From Herbidospora yilanensis (GTDB taxonomy: Bacteria; Actinomycetota; Actinomycetes; Streptosporangiales; Streptosporangiaceae): a DNA stretch of 64,000 nt. Under the pieces are notes generated by a model. The model did no database searches and was not told the origin of the DNA. It was given only the letters and a program-made list of their open reading frames with translations. The stretch is from NCBI RefSeq assembly GCF_001570565.1, contig NZ_BBXE01000014.1, forward strand, positions 62,001 to 126,000, given 5' to 3'. The first letter of the stretch is position 1; each line of letters opens with the position of its first letter. Shown piece after piece: positions 17,700-37,081 of this stretch. The translations under genes were made by a program, and so were the position numbers.

Positions 17700-18128
17700 C
17701 TAGCTGAGGAGCTCGGCGTTCAGGGTGATCTCGGTGCCGGTGAGGGCCTTGCTGACCGGGCAGTTGGCCTTGGCGTTCTCGGCGGCGGCCTGGAACTCCT
17801 CGGCGGTGATGCCGGGGACCTGCGCCTTGACCGACAGGACGATGCCGGTGATGCCCTGGCCGGGCTGGAAGGTCACGTCGGCCTTGGTCTCGACGGTCTG
17901 CGGCGGGGTGCCCGCCTGCGCCAGGCCGTGCGAGAGGGCCATCGAGAAGCACGAGGAGTGCGCGGCCGCGATGAGCTCTTCGGGGCTGGTCTTACCGTTG
18001 GCCGCCTCGGCGCGCGACGGCCAGCTGACGTCGAACGTGCCGACGCCGGACGTGTCCAGCGACACCGAGCCGGAGCCGTCGAGGAGCGCGCCCTTCCACT
18101 GGGTCGTCGCGGTACGAGTGGTCGCCAT
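17700..18128 (-). CDS. OsmC family peroxiredoxin
   Basis: A 142-residue thiol peroxidase of the OsmC type, which reduces organic hydroperoxides. The peroxidatic cysteine is in AAAHSSCFSMALSH, and the resolving cysteine in NAKANCPVSKAL. The conserved N-terminal segment (SGSVSLDTSGVGTFDVSW) and the TSPEELIAAAH motif are intact. I chose ATG 18128 (MATTRTATTQW) with AAGGGAT upstream at good spacing. It is a single-gene unit ending in a strong terminator. It lies just downstream of the guanidine ABC operon, and I see no terminator between them. Confidence 0.93.
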   Translation of the reverse strand: MATTRTATTQWKGALLDGSGSVSLDTSGVGTFDVSWPSRAEAANGKTSPEELIAAAHSSCFSMALSHGLAQAGTPPQTVETKADVTFQPGQGITGIVLSVKAQVPGITAEEFQAAAENAKANCPVSKALTGTEITLNAELLS

Positions 18129-18174: not shown

Positions 18175-18954
18175 TCAGGCGCGCGCGGCTGCCAGGTGGG
18201 CACGGTGTTCGCGCCGGACCAGGTCTTCGACCTGCGCCCGGACCGCCAGGAACTCGGCGGTCCGCTTCACCTCCAGGCCGTCGCCGGGCGGCTCGACCCG
18301 CAGGTCGCGGGCCACCCGGCCGGGGTCGCTGGCCAGGACCAGGACCCGCCGCCCCAGGAAGACGGCCTCCTCGACGTCGTGGGTGACCATGACGACCGTG
18401 GTGCCGAGATCCCGCCAGACCTGGCGGATGAACAGTTGCATGTCCTCCTTCGTCTGGACGTCCAGAGCCCCGAACGGCTCGTCGAGGAGCAGGACCTTGG
18501 GGGAGCGGGCCAGCGCCCGCGCGATCGAGACCCGCTGCTGCTGGCCGCCCGAGAGGCTCCCGGGGAGTTTCCCGGCGTGCTCGGTCAGGCCGACCTCGTC
18601 GAGGAGCCAGGCGACGCGTTCCCGCCTGGCCTGGCGGGAGAAACCCCGTGTCTCCAGGGCGAACGCGACGTTCTGCGCCACCGTGCGCCACGGGTAGAGG
18701 CTGGGCGACTGGAAGGCCATGCCCCGGTCGGGGCCCGGTCCCTCGACGGTCCGGCCGTCGAGGACGACGCGGCCCTTCGTGGGTCTGGTCAGGCCCGCGA
18801 CCAGCGACAACAGGGTCGACTTGCCCGAGCCGCTGGCCCCGACGATCGTGACGAACTCGCCGGGCGGGATCTCCAGGTCGATGTCCTCCAGTACGGGGAC
18901 TCCGGGGGTGTAGGCCATCGACACGCCCTCGAAACGCAGGCTCACGCCGACCAC
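18175..18954 (-). CDS. ABC transporter ATP-binding protein, probable guanidine importer
   Basis: A 259-residue ATPase of the nitrate/sulfonate/taurine (SsuB/TauB) group. Walker A is GASGSGKST, the Q-loop region AFQSPSLYPW, the signature LSGGQQQR, Walker B VLLLDEP, and the switch histidine in VTHDVEEA. It overlaps the permease gene by 13 bases and is the last gene of a five-gene operon that begins with a guanidine-I riboswitch. By this context the ligand is most simply guanidine, although the family is annotated for nitrate, sulfonates or taurine. Confidence 0.93.
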   Translation of the reverse strand: MVGVSLRFEGVSMAYTPGVPVLEDIDLEIPPGEFVTIVGASGSGKSTLLSLVAGLTRPTKGRVVLDGRTVEGPGPDRGMAFQSPSLYPWRTVAQNVAFALETRGFSRQARRERVAWLLDEVGLTEHAGKLPGSLSGGQQQRVSIARALARSPKVLLLDEPFGALDVQTKEDMQLFIRQVWRDLGTTVVMVTHDVEEAVFLGRRVLVLASDPGRVARDLRVEPPGDGLEVKRTAEFLAVRAQVEDLVRREHRAHLAAARA

Positions 18955-19769
18955 CTGCCGACCCGGGACCGGACGACTCTGAGCGTGACGTCGATGGTCA
19001 GGCCGATGAGGCCGATCACGATCAGGATGGCGAAGATCTTGTCGGTCTGGAGGAAACGCTGGGCCCGGGTGATCCGGTAGCCGAGGCCGGAGGTCGCCGC
19101 GATCAGCTCGGCCACGACGACGAGGTTGTAGGCCACGGCGGCGTTGACCCGGAGGGCGTCGAGGATGCCGGGGAGCGAGTGCGGGAACACCACCCGGGCG
19201 GCGACGCGCGCCCGCCCGGCCCCGAGGGTAGCCGACACGTCGAGCAGCCTCCTCGGGACCTGCCGGACGACGTCGGCGGTCATGAGCGTGTTGAAGAACA
19301 CCACGCCGAGCACCAGCAGTGCGATCTTGGACGTCTCCCCGATGCCCAGCCAGATGATCAGCAACGGGATGAAGGCGGAGGCCGGGAGGTAACGGAGGAT
19401 CCCGATGATCGGCTCGAACAGCGGCTGCGCCCAGCCGACCGTCCCCATCAGGAACCCCAGCGGGACGGAGACCAGGATCGCGAGCCCGAACCCGGCCCCG
19501 ATCCGGCCGAGGCTGGCCAGCAGATCGTTCCGCAGGTCACCGCTGGCGGCCATGTCCGTGAAGGCGGCCCAGACCTGCGGGGGCGCGGGCAGGAACCGGT
19601 CGGGGACGACCCCCGAGCCGCTGACCGCCCACCACACCGCGAACGGCACCGCCACCGAGGCGATCCGCAACACCCAGGCGGTCCGGCGCGAGACCCCGGT
19701 CTTGAGGAGCCTGACCCGGGGCGCGGGGGAGGCGGCCCGCTCGACGGGAGGCGACTCCACGCTCACCAC
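18942..19769 (-). CDS. ABC transporter permease, probable guanidine importer
   Basis: A 275-residue inner-membrane permease of the BPD_transp_1 family with about six helices (VLRIASVAVPFAVWWAVSG; IGAGFGLAILVSVPLGFLMG; IALLVLGVVFFNTLMTA; FAILIVIGLIGLTIDVTL). The EAA-loop equivalent lies near DVSATLGAGRARVAARVVFP. It follows a small unknown gene by 39 bases and overlaps the ATPase. The N-terminus (MVSVESPPVERAASPAPR) is a cytosolic tail of about 30 residues. The substrate is inferred to be guanidine from the riboswitch upstream of the operon. Confidence 0.92.
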   Translation of the reverse strand: MVSVESPPVERAASPAPRVRLLKTGVSRRTAWVLRIASVAVPFAVWWAVSGSGVVPDRFLPAPPQVWAAFTDMAASGDLRNDLLASLGRIGAGFGLAILVSVPLGFLMGTVGWAQPLFEPIIGILRYLPASAFIPLLIIWLGIGETSKIALLVLGVVFFNTLMTADVVRQVPRRLLDVSATLGAGRARVAARVVFPHSLPGILDALRVNAAVAYNLVVVAELIAATSGLGYRITRAQRFLQTDKIFAILIVIGLIGLTIDVTLRVVRSRVGRWSA

Positions 19770-19808
19770 GACCTGCCTCCTGAGGGGTGGGCGCGCTCCG
19801 GTGCCTTG

Positions 19809-20090
19809 TCAGCCATCGCTGCCCCCGCCCGACTGTTCGACCCGCCAGGACCCGTCGGTCACGGCCACGACCACCCGGCGGGCCGCGTTGGCGACCGGGC
19901 CCGCCGGCAGGGCCTCGGCGAACTCGTGGACGACGGCCGGGACCTCGGCCGGGGTGGTCAACCGGCTGCGGTCCTGTCCCGCGAGGGCGGACGCGCCGCG
20001 GTTCCGGTCGGCCGCGGAGGCCTCACCCCGGGTGCGGGCGGTCGGGCCGGAAGAGGTCACGCGGACGCGGTGGCGGTTGGCGAGGGTCAT
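19809..20090 (-). CDS. Small unknown protein within the guanidine operon, 93 residues
   Basis: A 93-residue reading frame that fills the gap between the substrate-binding protein and permease genes. ATG 20090 overlaps the preceding stop by four bases (ATGA), which is strong evidence that it is translated. The first 40 residues are basic and low in complexity (MTLANRHRVRVTSSGPTART); the rest is more protein-like (TPAEVPAVVHEFAEALPAGP, then AARRVVVAVTDGSWRVEQ). It has no cysteine or obvious metal motif and no membrane segment. I do not recognise it. It could be an accessory factor or a degraded gene. Confidence 0.55.
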   Translation of the reverse strand: MTLANRHRVRVTSSGPTARTRGEASAADRNRGASALAGQDRSRLTTPAEVPAVVHEFAEALPAGPVANAARRVVVAVTDGSWRVEQSGGGSDG

Positions 20091-21055
20091 GGCTGGACGG
20101 CCTCCACGAACTTGGACAGGAACAGGCCGTCGAGCGGCGGGGCCGCGTCGACGAGTTTGGTCGAGACCAGGAAGTCGGAGATCAGCTTCGCCTGCTGGTC
20201 GAGCGCGCCGGTGAAGGCGGTCCGGTTCTGGTCGAGGGTGAAGATCGTGGTGCCCTTGTCGTACGTCTCGTACTCCGCCGGCGTCACCCCGCCCCGCTTG
20301 GCCATGATCTCCACCGCCTTCGCGCGGTTGGCGCCGATCCACTCGATCGTGTCGAACCACGTGTTCACCAGGCCCTGGACCGCCCGTTCGTCGCGGGAGA
20401 GCAGGTCGCGGGTGACCACCAGGTGGTCGGGGATCGCGCCGGGGAAGTCGGCCGAGGTCGCGACGGCGGTGCTGCCCTCGCGTTCCAGCGCCGTCGAGGT
20501 GAAGGGCGCGAACGCGCCGACGGCGTCGACCTGGCCCGCGACGAAGGCCGCGGCGGCGGCGTCGGTGAGCATCGGGGTGAAGTTCACGTCGGCCTCGGAC
20601 AGGCCGGCCTTCTCCAGGGCGAGCAGCAGCAGGTAGTGGTCGACCGTGCCCTGCTCGGCGGCCACCGTCTTGCCCTTGAGGTCGGCCAGGGTCTTGATCC
20701 CGGGGGCGGCGATGATCTGGTCGTTGCCGGTCGAGTTGTCGTTGACCAGGACGATGCTCTGCTGCGCGCCGCCGGCCACCGAGGCCAGCGTGTCGTTGAG
20801 GGTCTGGCTGTTGGCGTCGATCGTGCCGGTCGCCAGGGCGTTCAGGGAGTCGGTGTAGCTGTCGAAGTACTTCAGCTCGACCGTCACCCCGTTCTTCTCG
20901 AACAGGCCCTGCTCCTGGGCCACCTGCCACGGGAACCAGCCGGGCCAGGCGCTGAAGCCGAGGGTGATGGGCGCGGCCGTCGGCGTGGCCGGTTCGGCCG
21001 GGGCGGCGGCGCAGGCCGTGCAGAGCAGTAAGACCAAGAGCACGCGACGGAACAT
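20087..21055 (-). CDS. ABC transporter substrate-binding protein, probable guanidine receptor
   Basis: A 322-residue periplasmic-binding protein of the NMT1/THI5-SsuA-like class: ITLGFSAWPGWFPWQVAQEQGLF at the mature N-terminus, TGTIDANSQTLNDTLA, LKGKTVAAEQGTVDHYLLL and FVAGQVDAVGAFAPF. The signal sequence MFRRVLLVLLL is followed by CTAC, a lipobox with an unusual cysteine at -3, so lipidation is likely but not certain. ATG 21055 shares a base with the upstream hydrolase stop (TGATG). It binds the imported substrate outside the membrane; guanidine is inferred from the operon's riboswitch and first gene. Confidence 0.9.
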   Translation of the reverse strand: MFRRVLLVLLLCTACAAAPAEPATPTAAPITLGFSAWPGWFPWQVAQEQGLFEKNGVTVELKYFDSYTDSLNALATGTIDANSQTLNDTLASVAGGAQQSIVLVNDNSTGNDQIIAAPGIKTLADLKGKTVAAEQGTVDHYLLLLALEKAGLSEADVNFTPMLTDAAAAAFVAGQVDAVGAFAPFTSTALEREGSTAVATSADFPGAIPDHLVVTRDLLSRDERAVQGLVNTWFDTIEWIGANRAKAVEIMAKRGGVTPAEYETYDKGTTIFTLDQNRTAFTGALDQQAKLISDFLVSTKLVDAAPPLDGLFLSKFVEAVQP

Positions 21056-22176
21056 CACGCCGCTCCCTTCTTCTTGGGGAGGTGACCCGCGCGGACCAGG
21101 CACCCGAGGGTGTCGCAGATCACGCGGGTGGCGATGAGGGAGGTGATCTCGGCGTTGTCGTAGGGCGGCGCGCACTCGACCACCTCGATGCCGGCCAGCG
21201 GCCGGGCGTCGGCGATGAGCTGGATGAACTTCAGCACCTCACGCGGCAGGAAGCCGCCCGGCTCGGGCCAGCCGGTGCCGGGCACGAACGCGGCGTCCAG
21301 GCAGTCGACGTCGAACGAGAGCCACACGGCCTCGGCCCCGTCCCAGGCCACCTCCAGGGCCCGCTCGGCCGCCGCCTCGATGCCCATCTCGACGCAGTCG
21401 GTGACGGTCATGATGGTGGTGCCGCGCTCGCGGCCGACCTTCACGCCCGGTCGCGGCGCCTGCCAGCCGCCGATCCCGATCTGCACGAGGTTCTTCGGCG
21501 GCACGTTCGGCAGATCGGTGGCGTGGAACCAGGGTGTGGTGTGCATCCGCTCGTCGAGGTCGGTCTCCTGGGTGTCGACGTGGCGGTCGAAGTGGATGAT
21601 CCCGACGTTCCCCGTGTGGTGCTCGGCCACCGCCCGGACGGTCGGGTAGCCGATCGAGTGGTCGCCGCCCAGCACGACCGGGAACGCCCCCGACGCGTAG
21701 ACGTGGGAGACGCCCTTGCTGATCTGGTCGAAGGTCTTCTCGATGTTGGCCGGGATGGTGAAGATGTCGCCCAGGTCGCAGATCGTGATCGACTCGCGCA
21801 GGTCGACGCCGAGCTCGAAGCTGTAGGGGCCGTAGAGAGCGCTGATCTTGCGGATGCCCTGGGGGCCGAAGCGGGTGCCCGACCGGTAGGTGGTGCCGCC
21901 GTCGAAGGGCGCGCCGATCACCGCCACGTCGTAGTCGCCGCAGGTGCGGACGTCCTCGACGTACGGGGCCTTGAGGAAGGTGTTGATGCCGGCGAAGTGC
22001 GGCAGCTCGCCCCGGGAGAAGGTGGGGATGGTCCGGTCGACGATCGAGTCGGCGCCCGGCAGCCCGAGTTCCAGGCCGCGCGCGATCTCGCGCTGGTGCA
22101 TGGTCGTGGGCAGCGCGGCCTCGCGCTCCACGGCCGACCGGGCCTCGGGGCCGTAGTTGTTGTGGAGGTGTCCCAC
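21055..22176 (-). CDS. gdmH: Ureohydrolase-family guanidine hydrolase candidate (would be annotated agmatinase)
   Basis: A 373-residue ureohydrolase. Dinuclear metal ligands are in GGDHS (170-174), FDRHVD (D197, H199, D201) and SFDVDCLD (D289, D291). The usual DAHxD motif is DRHxD here, and PGTGWPEPGG carries W where agmatinases commonly have T. Established knowledge: some 'agmatinases' behind guanidine riboswitches are nickel-dependent guanidine hydrolases that release urea and ammonia. The guanidine-I riboswitch directly upstream makes that reading better than agmatinase. GTG 22176 has AAGGAG five bases upstream; a longer frame would translate through the riboswitch and is rejected. It is followed by an ABC importer. 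Confidence 0.85.
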   Translation of the reverse strand: MGHLHNNYGPEARSAVEREAALPTTMHQREIARGLELGLPGADSIVDRTIPTFSRGELPHFAGINTFLKAPYVEDVRTCGDYDVAVIGAPFDGGTTYRSGTRFGPQGIRKISALYGPYSFELGVDLRESITICDLGDIFTIPANIEKTFDQISKGVSHVYASGAFPVVLGGDHSIGYPTVRAVAEHHTGNVGIIHFDRHVDTQETDLDERMHTTPWFHATDLPNVPPKNLVQIGIGGWQAPRPGVKVGRERGTTIMTVTDCVEMGIEAAAERALEVAWDGAEAVWLSFDVDCLDAAFVPGTGWPEPGGFLPREVLKFIQLIADARPLAGIEVVECAPPYDNAEITSLIATRVICDTLGCLVRAGHLPKKKGAA

Positions 22177-22226
22177 GGGCACTCCTTTTCGGGGAAAAGC
22201 CTCAGGTGGAGAGGCAGCCGTCGTGA

Positions 22227-22318
22227 CTGTCTCCCGGGCTTTTCCCCCGCCGTGGAACGGCCTTGCGGCCGTCTGCACCTCTCGGACCAGGCCTCACGAA
22301 GAGCGGAACCCTAGGTGC
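22227..22318 (-). promoter_or_regulatory. Guanidine-I (ykkC) riboswitch
   Basis: The aptamer matches the ykkC consensus in order on the minus strand: CTAGGGTTCCG (22314-22304), GGTCCGAGAG, ACGGCCGCAAGGCCGT as a stem-loop, CACGGCGGG, and GGGGAAAAGCCCGGGAGA ending near 22230. It lies in the leader of the hydrolase/ABC operon. Guanidine binding to this class generally turns expression on. Downstream, GCTTTTCCCC (22200-22191) is exactly complementary to GGGGAAAAGC of the aptamer and touches the ribosome-binding site, so it is a likely expression platform. A stem-loop, CTCACC-GGAG-GGTGAG (22336-22321), lies just upstream. Confidence 0.94.
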
Positions 22319-22398
22319 GCCTCACCCTCCGGTGAGTCCCCTTCATGAGAGCGCCGGGCCGTTTCCTCCGTGTTTCCGGCCGGTAGCGGTCCGGTGAC

Positions 22399-24009
22399 TC
22401 AGATCCGGGCCAGGATGGCGTCGAGGTCGCGGCCCGGCCCCAGGGCGCCGTAGGCGCGGCCCGAGCCGCCGCCGAGCCGCGAGGCGCAGAACGCGTCGGC
22501 CACGCTCGCCGGGGCGAACCTGATCAGCAGCGAGGCCTGCAGCACCAGCGCCATCTCCTCCGCGAGCCGCCGCGCGTCGGCCTCGGTGGCGTGGGCGAGC
22601 GTCTTGCGCACCCGGCCGACCGATTCGGAGATCCGCGGGTCGGTGGCCAGTTCGACCTCGGTGAAGAACGCCTCCGCCGTCTCGGGCTCGCGGGTGAGTG
22701 CCCGCACCAGGTCGAGGGCGGCGACGTTGCCCGACCCCTCCCAGATGCCGTTCAGCGGCGACTCGCGGAACAGCCGGGGCAGGCCCGACTCCTCGACGTA
22801 GCCGTTGCCGCCCAGGCATTCGAGCGCCTCGGCGGCGTGCCCGGCGGCCCGCTTGCAGACCCAGTACTTCCCGGCCGCCAGCGCCACCCGCCGGAACAGC
22901 CCCTCCTGAGCCTGACCGGCCACGGCCCGGTCGGTGGCCCCGGCGAGCCGCATCATCAGCACCGTCGCCGCCTCGGACTCCAGGGCCAGGTCGGCCAGCA
23001 CGTTCCGCATGAGCGGCTGGTCGGCGAGCAGCCGGCCGAAGGCCCTGCGGTGCCGGGTGTGGTGGACGGCCTGGGTCAGCCCCAGCCGCATGCCCGCCGC
23101 TGACCCGATCACGCAGTCGAGCCGGGTCATGTTGACCATCTCGATGATCGTCCGGATGCCGCGCCCCTCCTCGCCGACCAGCCAGGCGACCGCGTCGTCG
23201 TACTCGACCTCGGCCGAGGCGTTCGACCGGTTGCCGAGCTTGTCCTTCAGCCGCATGAGCCGGACGGCGTTGCGGGCGCCGTCGGGGAGCACCCTCGGGA
23301 GCAGGAAGCAGGAGAGCCCGCCCGGCGCCTGGGCCAGCACCAGGAACACGTCGCACATGGGCGCCGAGTTGAACCACTTGTGGCCGTTCAGGACGTAGGT
23401 CCCGTCGCCGAGGGGCTCGGCGGTGGTCGTGTTGGCGCGGACGTCGCTCCCGCCCTGCTTCTCGGTCATGGCCATCCCGGCGAGCACCCCGCGCTTGTCG
23501 GCCATGGGCCGCAGGCCCGGGTCGTAGGTGCGGGAGGCGAGCGCCGGCTCCCACTCGGCCGCGAGCGCCGGGGCGTGCCGCAACGCGGCCACCGAGGCGT
23601 AGGTCATCGAGATCGGGCACCCGTGCCCCGCCTCGACCTGCGACCACACGTAGAACTTGGCCGCCCGCGCCACGTGGGCCCCTGGCCGGGCCATCGTCCA
23701 GGGCGCGGCGTGCAGGCCGTGCTCGACGGCGACGGTCATCAGCTCGTGCCACGCCGGGTGGAACTCCACCTCGTCGATCCGGTGGCCATAGCGGTCGTGC
23801 GTCTTCAGGACCGGCTCGTTCTCGTTGGCCAGCCGCCCCCACTCCTGCGCCTTCGCGGTGCCCGCCAGCGTGCCGAGCTGCCGCAACTCGCCCTCGGCCC
23901 AGTCGGCGCCCTCCCGCACCAGCGCCGCCGCCAGCGCCGGGTCGGCCGCCACGTCGTGACCGGACAGCGGCGGCACCTGATTCATCACTTCATGGCTCAT
24001 GTCATCCAT
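22399..24009 (-). CDS. Acyl-CoA dehydrogenase, AidB/isovaleryl-CoA dehydrogenase-like
   Basis: A 536-residue flavoenzyme of the longer AidB-like branch of acyl-CoA dehydrogenases. The FAD-contact motif MAMTEKQGGSDVRANTT, the WFNSAPMCD segment, DKLGNRSNASAEVEYDDAVAW and the C-terminal LECLGGNGYVEESGLPRLFRE are all typical. E. coli AidB limits alkylation damage; relatives oxidise branched acyl-CoAs, so the substrate is open. ATG 24009 (MDDMSHEVMNQ) or 24000 could be the start. It diverges from an ECF sigma gene across about 55 bases. Confidence 0.9.
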   Translation of the reverse strand: MDDMSHEVMNQVPPLSGHDVAADPALAAALVREGADWAEGELRQLGTLAGTAKAQEWGRLANENEPVLKTHDRYGHRIDEVEFHPAWHELMTVAVEHGLHAAPWTMARPGAHVARAAKFYVWSQVEAGHGCPISMTYASVAALRHAPALAAEWEPALASRTYDPGLRPMADKRGVLAGMAMTEKQGGSDVRANTTTAEPLGDGTYVLNGHKWFNSAPMCDVFLVLAQAPGGLSCFLLPRVLPDGARNAVRLMRLKDKLGNRSNASAEVEYDDAVAWLVGEEGRGIRTIIEMVNMTRLDCVIGSAAGMRLGLTQAVHHTRHRRAFGRLLADQPLMRNVLADLALESEAATVLMMRLAGATDRAVAGQAQEGLFRRVALAAGKYWVCKRAAGHAAEALECLGGNGYVEESGLPRLFRESPLNGIWEGSGNVAALDLVRALTREPETAEAFFTEVELATDPRISESVGRVRKTLAHATEADARRLAEEMALVLQASLLIRFAPASVADAFCASRLGGGSGRAYGALGPGRDLDAILARI

Positions 24010-35694: not shown

Positions 35695-35710
35695 CAGCCG
35701 ATAAGGTGGG

Positions 35711-35787
35711 GTTCTCGCTACTGGCGCTATGAGGTGGGGCACCACCGGGGAGCGGAAACCGCGTCGGCCGTGCGCCTGGGTCGACGC
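35711..35787 (+). promoter_or_regulatory. ZTP (pfl) riboswitch controlling glyA
   Basis: The leader of glyA carries the pfl consensus in order: TCGCTACTGGCG (35715-35726), AGGTGGGGCACCACCGGGGA forming the pseudoknotted hairpin region, then GGCCGTGCGCCTGGG (35766-35780). The class senses ZMP/ZTP, a sign of 10-formyl-tetrahydrofolate shortage, and turns on one-carbon genes; glyA is a typical target. Downstream, CGACGC (35782-35787) can pair with GCGTCG (35761-35766), or its CGACG can pair with CGTCG (35792-35796), offering alternative folds next to GAGGAAGG, the ribosome-binding site. Confidence 0.93.
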
Positions 35788-35815
35788 AGTCGTCGAGTTC
35801 CGAGGAAGGCGCTCA

Positions 35816-37081
<1,266 letters not shown>

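Follow-up and report, generated by a model that had tools for sequence, protein, structure and literature searches.

Operons of guanidine hydrolase and their predicted counterpart in Herbidospora

Operons in which a guanidine riboswitch precedes a ureohydrolase and an importer are known from cyanobacteria. Here we compare them with a locus of Herbidospora yilanensis, lying within a 64,000-nucleotide stretch of contig NZ_BBXE01000014.1 (the window, to which all coordinates refer), that carries a guanidine-I riboswitch, a predicted guanidine hydrolase (guanidinase) gene, gdmH, and the genes of an ATP-binding cassette (ABC) importer. We consider it very likely that this operon serves guanidine assimilation. 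Sll1077 of Synechocystis PCC 6803 was judged more likely to be a guanidinase than an agmatinase, and such genes were reported to occur often in operons with hypA, hypB, and genes for SsuA_fam, TM_PBP2, and NrtD/SsuB proteins under guanidine riboswitches (PMC8390497). These enzyme and operon findings were extended in PMC11410670 and PMC12186494.

The Synechocystis operon (sll1077, encoding GdmH; hypA/hypB; sll1080-1082) has the guanidine-I riboswitch, the guanidinase, and the SsuA_fam/TM_PBP2/NrtD-SsuB importer in common with the Herbidospora locus (PMC8390497, PMC12186494). However, it includes hypA and hypB, which are described as required (PMC12186494), whereas the Herbidospora operon has neither, and the two enzymes are 66.4% identical. 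The operon of Nitrospira inopinata likewise combines a riboswitch with an enzyme 83.1% identical to that of Herbidospora (structure 9FEK), and no nickel chaperone gene neighbors this comammox guanidinase (PMC11410670). Its predicted importer is an APC permease, in contrast to the ABC importer of Herbidospora (PMC11410670). The guanidine carboxylase pathway of Raoultella and Klebsiella, with an ABC importer in Pseudomonas syringae, also shares guanidine riboswitches, ABC import, and nitrogen assimilation (PMC12186494, PMC11410670). That pathway proceeds through a carboxylase, a carboxyguanidine deaminase, and allophanate hydrolase, while the proteins of the Herbidospora operon match no such family.

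Papers of 2021, 2024, and 2025 had already described this kind of enzyme and operon, along with the earlier annotation as agmatinase. What is added here is the apparently chaperone-free setting, the variety of transporters, and the adjoining urease genes in some relatives. A preliminary description of this DNA had presented the operon as hidden under agmatinase and nitrate/taurine-transport labels; its guanidine reading holds, but "hidden" was an overstatement, as a paper of 2021 had already replaced the agmatinase label by that of a guanidinase. Our literature search found nothing on Herbidospora in connection with guanidine.

The predicted guanidinase GdmH

The gdmH gene (21055 to 22176, minus strand) encodes a 373-amino-acid protein, named from its identity to the structures 9FEK and 7ESR and from its key residues. 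The likely start is a GTG at 22176, preceded by AAGGAG at 22187 to 22182, and the stop codon ends at 21055. GdmH belongs to PF00491 (269 bits) and is 83.1% identical (305/367 residues) to 9FEK, the crystallized and assayed guanidinase of N. inopinata, and 66.4% identical (239/360 residues) to 7ESR, the Synechocystis GdmH. Among solved structures these two guanidinases scored 724.8 and 567.1 bits, and the next relative reached 194.5 bits. By alignment score, GdmH is closest to the characterized guanidinases among solved ureohydrolases.

The N. inopinata enzyme forms urea from guanidine and has very minor activity on agmatine; Thr105, His222, Trp313, and Glu344 were named as possibly important for guanidine catalysis, and the guanidine specificity of the Synechocystis enzyme is stated to have depended on Thr97 and Trp305 (PMC11410670). 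Thr96, His212, Trp303, and Glu334 of GdmH align with the catalysis and specificity sites named for 9FEK and 7ESR. The same four residues were found in all 80 relatives retained for comparison, which were the best of 571 hits and are therefore biased toward close kin. A second PF00491 protein in the genome (L082) reads GGTSHRPG, DAHAD, and GTGTPEPGG where GdmH has GGTTYRSG, DRHVD, and GTGWPEPGG; by this visual motif comparison its specificity sites hold Ser and Thr, compared with Thr and Trp in GdmH. The DRHxD and GTGWPEPGG clues on which the preliminary description had relied are thus sound, and the comparison of active-site residues that it proposed shows the Thr, His, Trp, and Glu sites to be shared throughout with the characterized guanidine hydrolases. 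Together with the high identity to an assayed enzyme, this supports its guanidine hydrolase reading. Judging from its sequence, GdmH would hydrolyze guanidine, in a nickel-dependent manner, rather than agmatine.

The guanidine-I riboswitch and its leader

A cmscan search of the window placed a guanidine-I (ykkC) riboswitch aptamer (RF00442) at 22229 to 22325 on the minus strand, scoring 75.5 bits (gathering score, 63; E = 1.3e-11) with the full model covered (1 to 107 of 107). The 7.85-Mb genome, given as 100% complete, yielded no second RF00442 match. The aptamer lies directly upstream of the ureohydrolase gene. The covariance model therefore accepts the ykkC assignment, which the preliminary description had staked on such a search. 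The riboswitch reported there is confirmed, but the aptamer starts 7 bases beyond the stated end of 22318, at 22325. As a member of its class, the aptamer at 22325 to 22229 is predicted to bind guanidine and to switch expression.

Genome searches in 48 of the relatives returned RF00442 at an E value of ≤0.001 in 42, with 37 of these above the cut-off. In all 42, the match fell inside the stretch fetched around gdmH (coordinates compared visually).

A possible expression platform was found in the minimum free energy (MFE) fold of 22340 to 22150, where an alternative hairpin (22191 to 22248, minus strand) pairs GGGGAAAAGCC, the 3' strand of the aptamer, with GGCUUUUCCCC, just ahead of the Shine-Dalgarno sequence. 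The aptamer is not kept whole in this lowest-energy fold. Guanidine-I riboswitches are described as having a ligand-free OFF hairpin whose formation is prevented by guanidine (PMC12186494), and the alternative hairpin would fit such a state. Leaders were also folded for the 53 of 80 relatives that hold the aptamer-end pattern (the 27 without it were dropped, and the window's own leader was treated separately). At least six positions of the aptamer 3' end were paired with the downstream stretch in 48 of the 53 MFE folds, a pair count that has no shuffle baseline. When the downstream part was shuffled, the median z score was −1.84, and in 27 of 53 leaders no more than 5 of 100 shuffles were equally stable. 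The relatives thus give modest support, and the hairpin is only suggestive as an expression platform. A short CUUUU/AAAAG pairing, which appeared weak on visual inspection, could instead cover the ribosome site and reverse the sense of switching. Control may act on transcription or on translation.

The ABC importer and alternative transporters

The gene following gdmH (20087 to 21055, minus strand) encodes an SsuA/NMT1-like substrate-binding protein (SBP), the predicted guanidine receptor. The only subfamily model that it passes is the broad SsuA_fam model TIGR01728 (220.7 bits; cut-off, 163.5). It scored 155.6 bits against TIGR03427, a putative urea ABC transporter SBP model with a cut-off of 333.9 that we take to be linked to urea carboxylase and guanidine, and 52 to 71 bits, below cut-off, against the specific taurine and sulfonate models. 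The permease (18942 to 19769, minus strand; PF00528, 89 bits) passed none of the NCBIfam models listed for it, and for the TauB/NrtD-like ATPase (18175 to 18954, minus strand; PF00005, 118.5 bits) the best 25 of 188 NCBIfam matches were all below cut-off. Hence, none of the three proteins is identified by a specific model as part of a taurine, sulfonate, or nitrate importer (for the ATPase, within those best 25 of 188). The ureohydrolase and complete ABC importer of the preliminary description are borne out by PF00491, SsuA_fam, PF00528, and PF00005, all on one strand. Its argument from operon order also has a precedent in print, as an SsuA_fam/TM_PBP2/NrtD-SsuB importer beside such enzymes was reported in PMC8390497.

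GdmH is 98 to 100% identical to the enzymes of three Herbidospora species, and the importer genes are 92 to 97% identical to those loci (permease, 93 to 96%). Across the 80 loci, tblastn searches with a limit of 3.5 kb found an SBP homologue near the guanidinase gene in 40 and a relative of an APC-type (amino acid) permease in 24, of which 20 matched one permease and 4 another. Ten of those 20 matches reached only 27 to 34% identity; every one of these came from a Nitrospira-type locus and lay upstream or on the opposite strand, so that the APC count partly reflects family resemblance. A sodium:solute symporter gene was found in five loci (L031, L039, L046, L054, and L070), and none of the three transporter types was present in 11, three of which end within 1.1 kb downstream. 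Seven of these neighboring transporters were checked by Pfam, and the symporter was assigned to PF00474 in both loci tested (L046 and L054). The symporter is a candidate third type of transporter for guanidine (or urea); our literature search found no description of a sodium:solute symporter as a guanidine importer. In L031, a high-scoring guanidine-I riboswitch (83.7 bits) precedes the symporter gene. No riboswitch match was obtained in the L039 or L046 genomes, with search filters that miss some weak matches.

Urease and nickel supply

Urea formed by GdmH could be used further, as the genome contains one match to the urease alpha subunit (ureC), with ureF, ureG, and ureD alongside (named visually from translations). 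Urease alpha was found in 47 of the 48 relatives' genomes, and in 7 of the 48 it was no more than 8 kb away from the riboswitch (G015, G017, G024, G026, G036, G042, and G046; visual comparison). Likewise, 8 of 80 loci have ureD at most 3.5 kb away from gdmH, on the same strand in 7. These seven loci (L016, L018, L025, L027, L031, L037, and L046) carry ureD shortly upstream of the guanidinase gene, which makes guanidine and urea breakdown neighbors in these genomes. The urease genes support urea as the product.

No HypA match (PF01155) was found in the H. yilanensis genome by a search that was positive in 7 of 14 control genomes, nor in 21 of the 48 relatives. In the relatives that have HypA, a visual comparison of contigs and positions placed none of the matches close to the riboswitch or to gdmH. 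As the other 27 of 48 encode it elsewhere, HypA may still play a role there. The three PF02492 matches of the H. yilanensis genome, named visually, were UreG (beside the urease genes), a CobW-like protein, and the signal recognition particle (SRP) GTPase Ffh, and HypB, for which this genome alone was searched, was not seen among them. Overall, this genome seems to lack the nickel chaperones that the Synechocystis operon encodes. We tentatively propose, at somewhat less than even odds, that actinobacterial guanidinases form a HypA/HypB-free branch, supplied with nickel by the urease accessory machinery or loaded without chaperones, in which one conserved guanidinase is combined with exchangeable importers, including the sodium:solute symporter.

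Guanidine assimilation and alternative explanations

For guanidine assimilation, the following sequence of events can be envisaged. Binding of guanidinium to the riboswitch would allow transcription or translation to proceed into gdmH and the importer genes, and the ABC importer, as its operon context suggests, would bring guanidinium into the cell. GdmH, given its 83% identity to the assayed enzyme and its identical key residues, would hydrolyze guanidinium to urea and ammonium, and the urease, whose genes lie at another place in the genome, would then split urea into ammonia and CO2. Nickel would reach GdmH without HypA/HypB, perhaps with the help of urease accessory proteins or simply through direct binding of the metal. 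In the host, guanidine would accordingly be transported and used as a nitrogen source.

A standard agmatinase or guanidinobutyrase that stands behind the riboswitch by chance is a scarcely credible alternative. GdmH is a PF00491 member, and the NCBIfam model that it matches best, NF002564, describes an agmatinase subfamily, yet the score of 218.4 bits is under the cut-off of 302, and TIGR01230 also falls short of its own (168.4 versus 174.3). The guanidinase structures score far ahead of any other, the specificity Thr and Trp are present, and the genome holds a separate ureohydrolase with other residues at these sites. We therefore rejected the agmatinase assignment. It is improbable, too, that guanidine acts only as inducer while the importer carries another substrate, such as taurine, a sulfonate, nitrate, or a substituted guanidine. 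An SBP above the SsuA_fam cut-off would suit such an importer, as would its best matches among solved structures, which bind sulfonate or taurine or are named for nitrate transport. Against this, the models specific for taurine and sulfonate fall far short of their cut-offs, while TIGR03427, the putative urea transporter model, gives 155.6 bits, likewise below its own. Moreover, an SBP homologue accompanies the guanidinase in half of the loci (40/80), and other transporter types take that place in 29/80. Slightly more probable, though still unlikely, is an operon that mainly detoxifies guanidine of internal or external origin, with nitrogen gain secondary. Indeed, the guanidinase of Synechococcus 7942 relieves guanidine toxicity (PMC8390497). 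However, a dedicated importer within the operon would admit more guanidine, and a urease is encoded in the genome and adjoins gdmH in some relatives.

Several observations weigh against guanidine assimilation or against parts of it. Urease is common in Actinomycetota, so its co-occurrence with the guanidinase says little. The sequence class of the SBP is broad, its nearest solved relatives, which bind sulfonate or taurine or are named for nitrate transport, score 54 to 63 bits, and guanidine as its ligand and cargo is a prediction from operon context. RF00442 gave no match in 6 of the 48 relatives' genomes (L026, L028, L039, L046, L047, and L049), although the search filters miss some weak ones. 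The platform prediction is weak, as the leader fold of 22340 to 22150 has a z score of −1.94 and 6 of 200 shuffles were equally stable; neither a canonical terminator nor a sigma-70 promoter was found in 22050 to 22450, and the missing terminator counts against the proposed control. Finally, the N. inopinata guanidinase has a high Km of 13.6 mM, and its authors weighed guanidine as a side substrate (PMC11410670).

Overall, these comparisons suggest that genes in many actinobacteria that would be labeled agmatinase and taurine or nitrate transporter constitute a guanidine nitrogen route, which bears on both annotation and the nitrogen cycle. Genomes in which HypA is missing offer natural test cases for the nickel loading of guanidinase.

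Other features of the window

Between the SBP and permease genes lies a 93-codon open reading frame (ORF) of unknown function (19809 to 20090, minus strand), which was absent from the preliminary description and whose start overlaps the SBP stop codon. It had no Pfam or NCBIfam match at an E value of ≤0.001. It recurs in all three other Herbidospora loci, with no match at an E value of ≤1e-3 in the other 77 relatives. Its length changes among the four Herbidospora sequences, and the C-terminal end is conserved in the same frame; with the C-terminal 41 residues as query, the matches listed at an E value of <0.01 came only from its own genome and Herbidospora. The ORF may be a real small gene.

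Two same-strand neighbors were not counted in the operon. Upstream is a gene for an AidB-type acyl-coenzyme A dehydrogenase (22399 to 23991, minus strand; AidB_N, 213.7 bits) and downstream one for an OsmC-type peroxiredoxin (17700 to 18125, minus strand; 170.4 bits). Elsewhere in the window, a ZMP/ZTP riboswitch (RF01750) was detected at 35707 to 35788 on the plus strand (57.5 bits; cut-off, 39). It heads an ORF at 35729 to 37081 (inner ATG near 35816) that on visual naming reads like serine hydroxymethyltransferase, glyA, an expected partner of this riboswitch.

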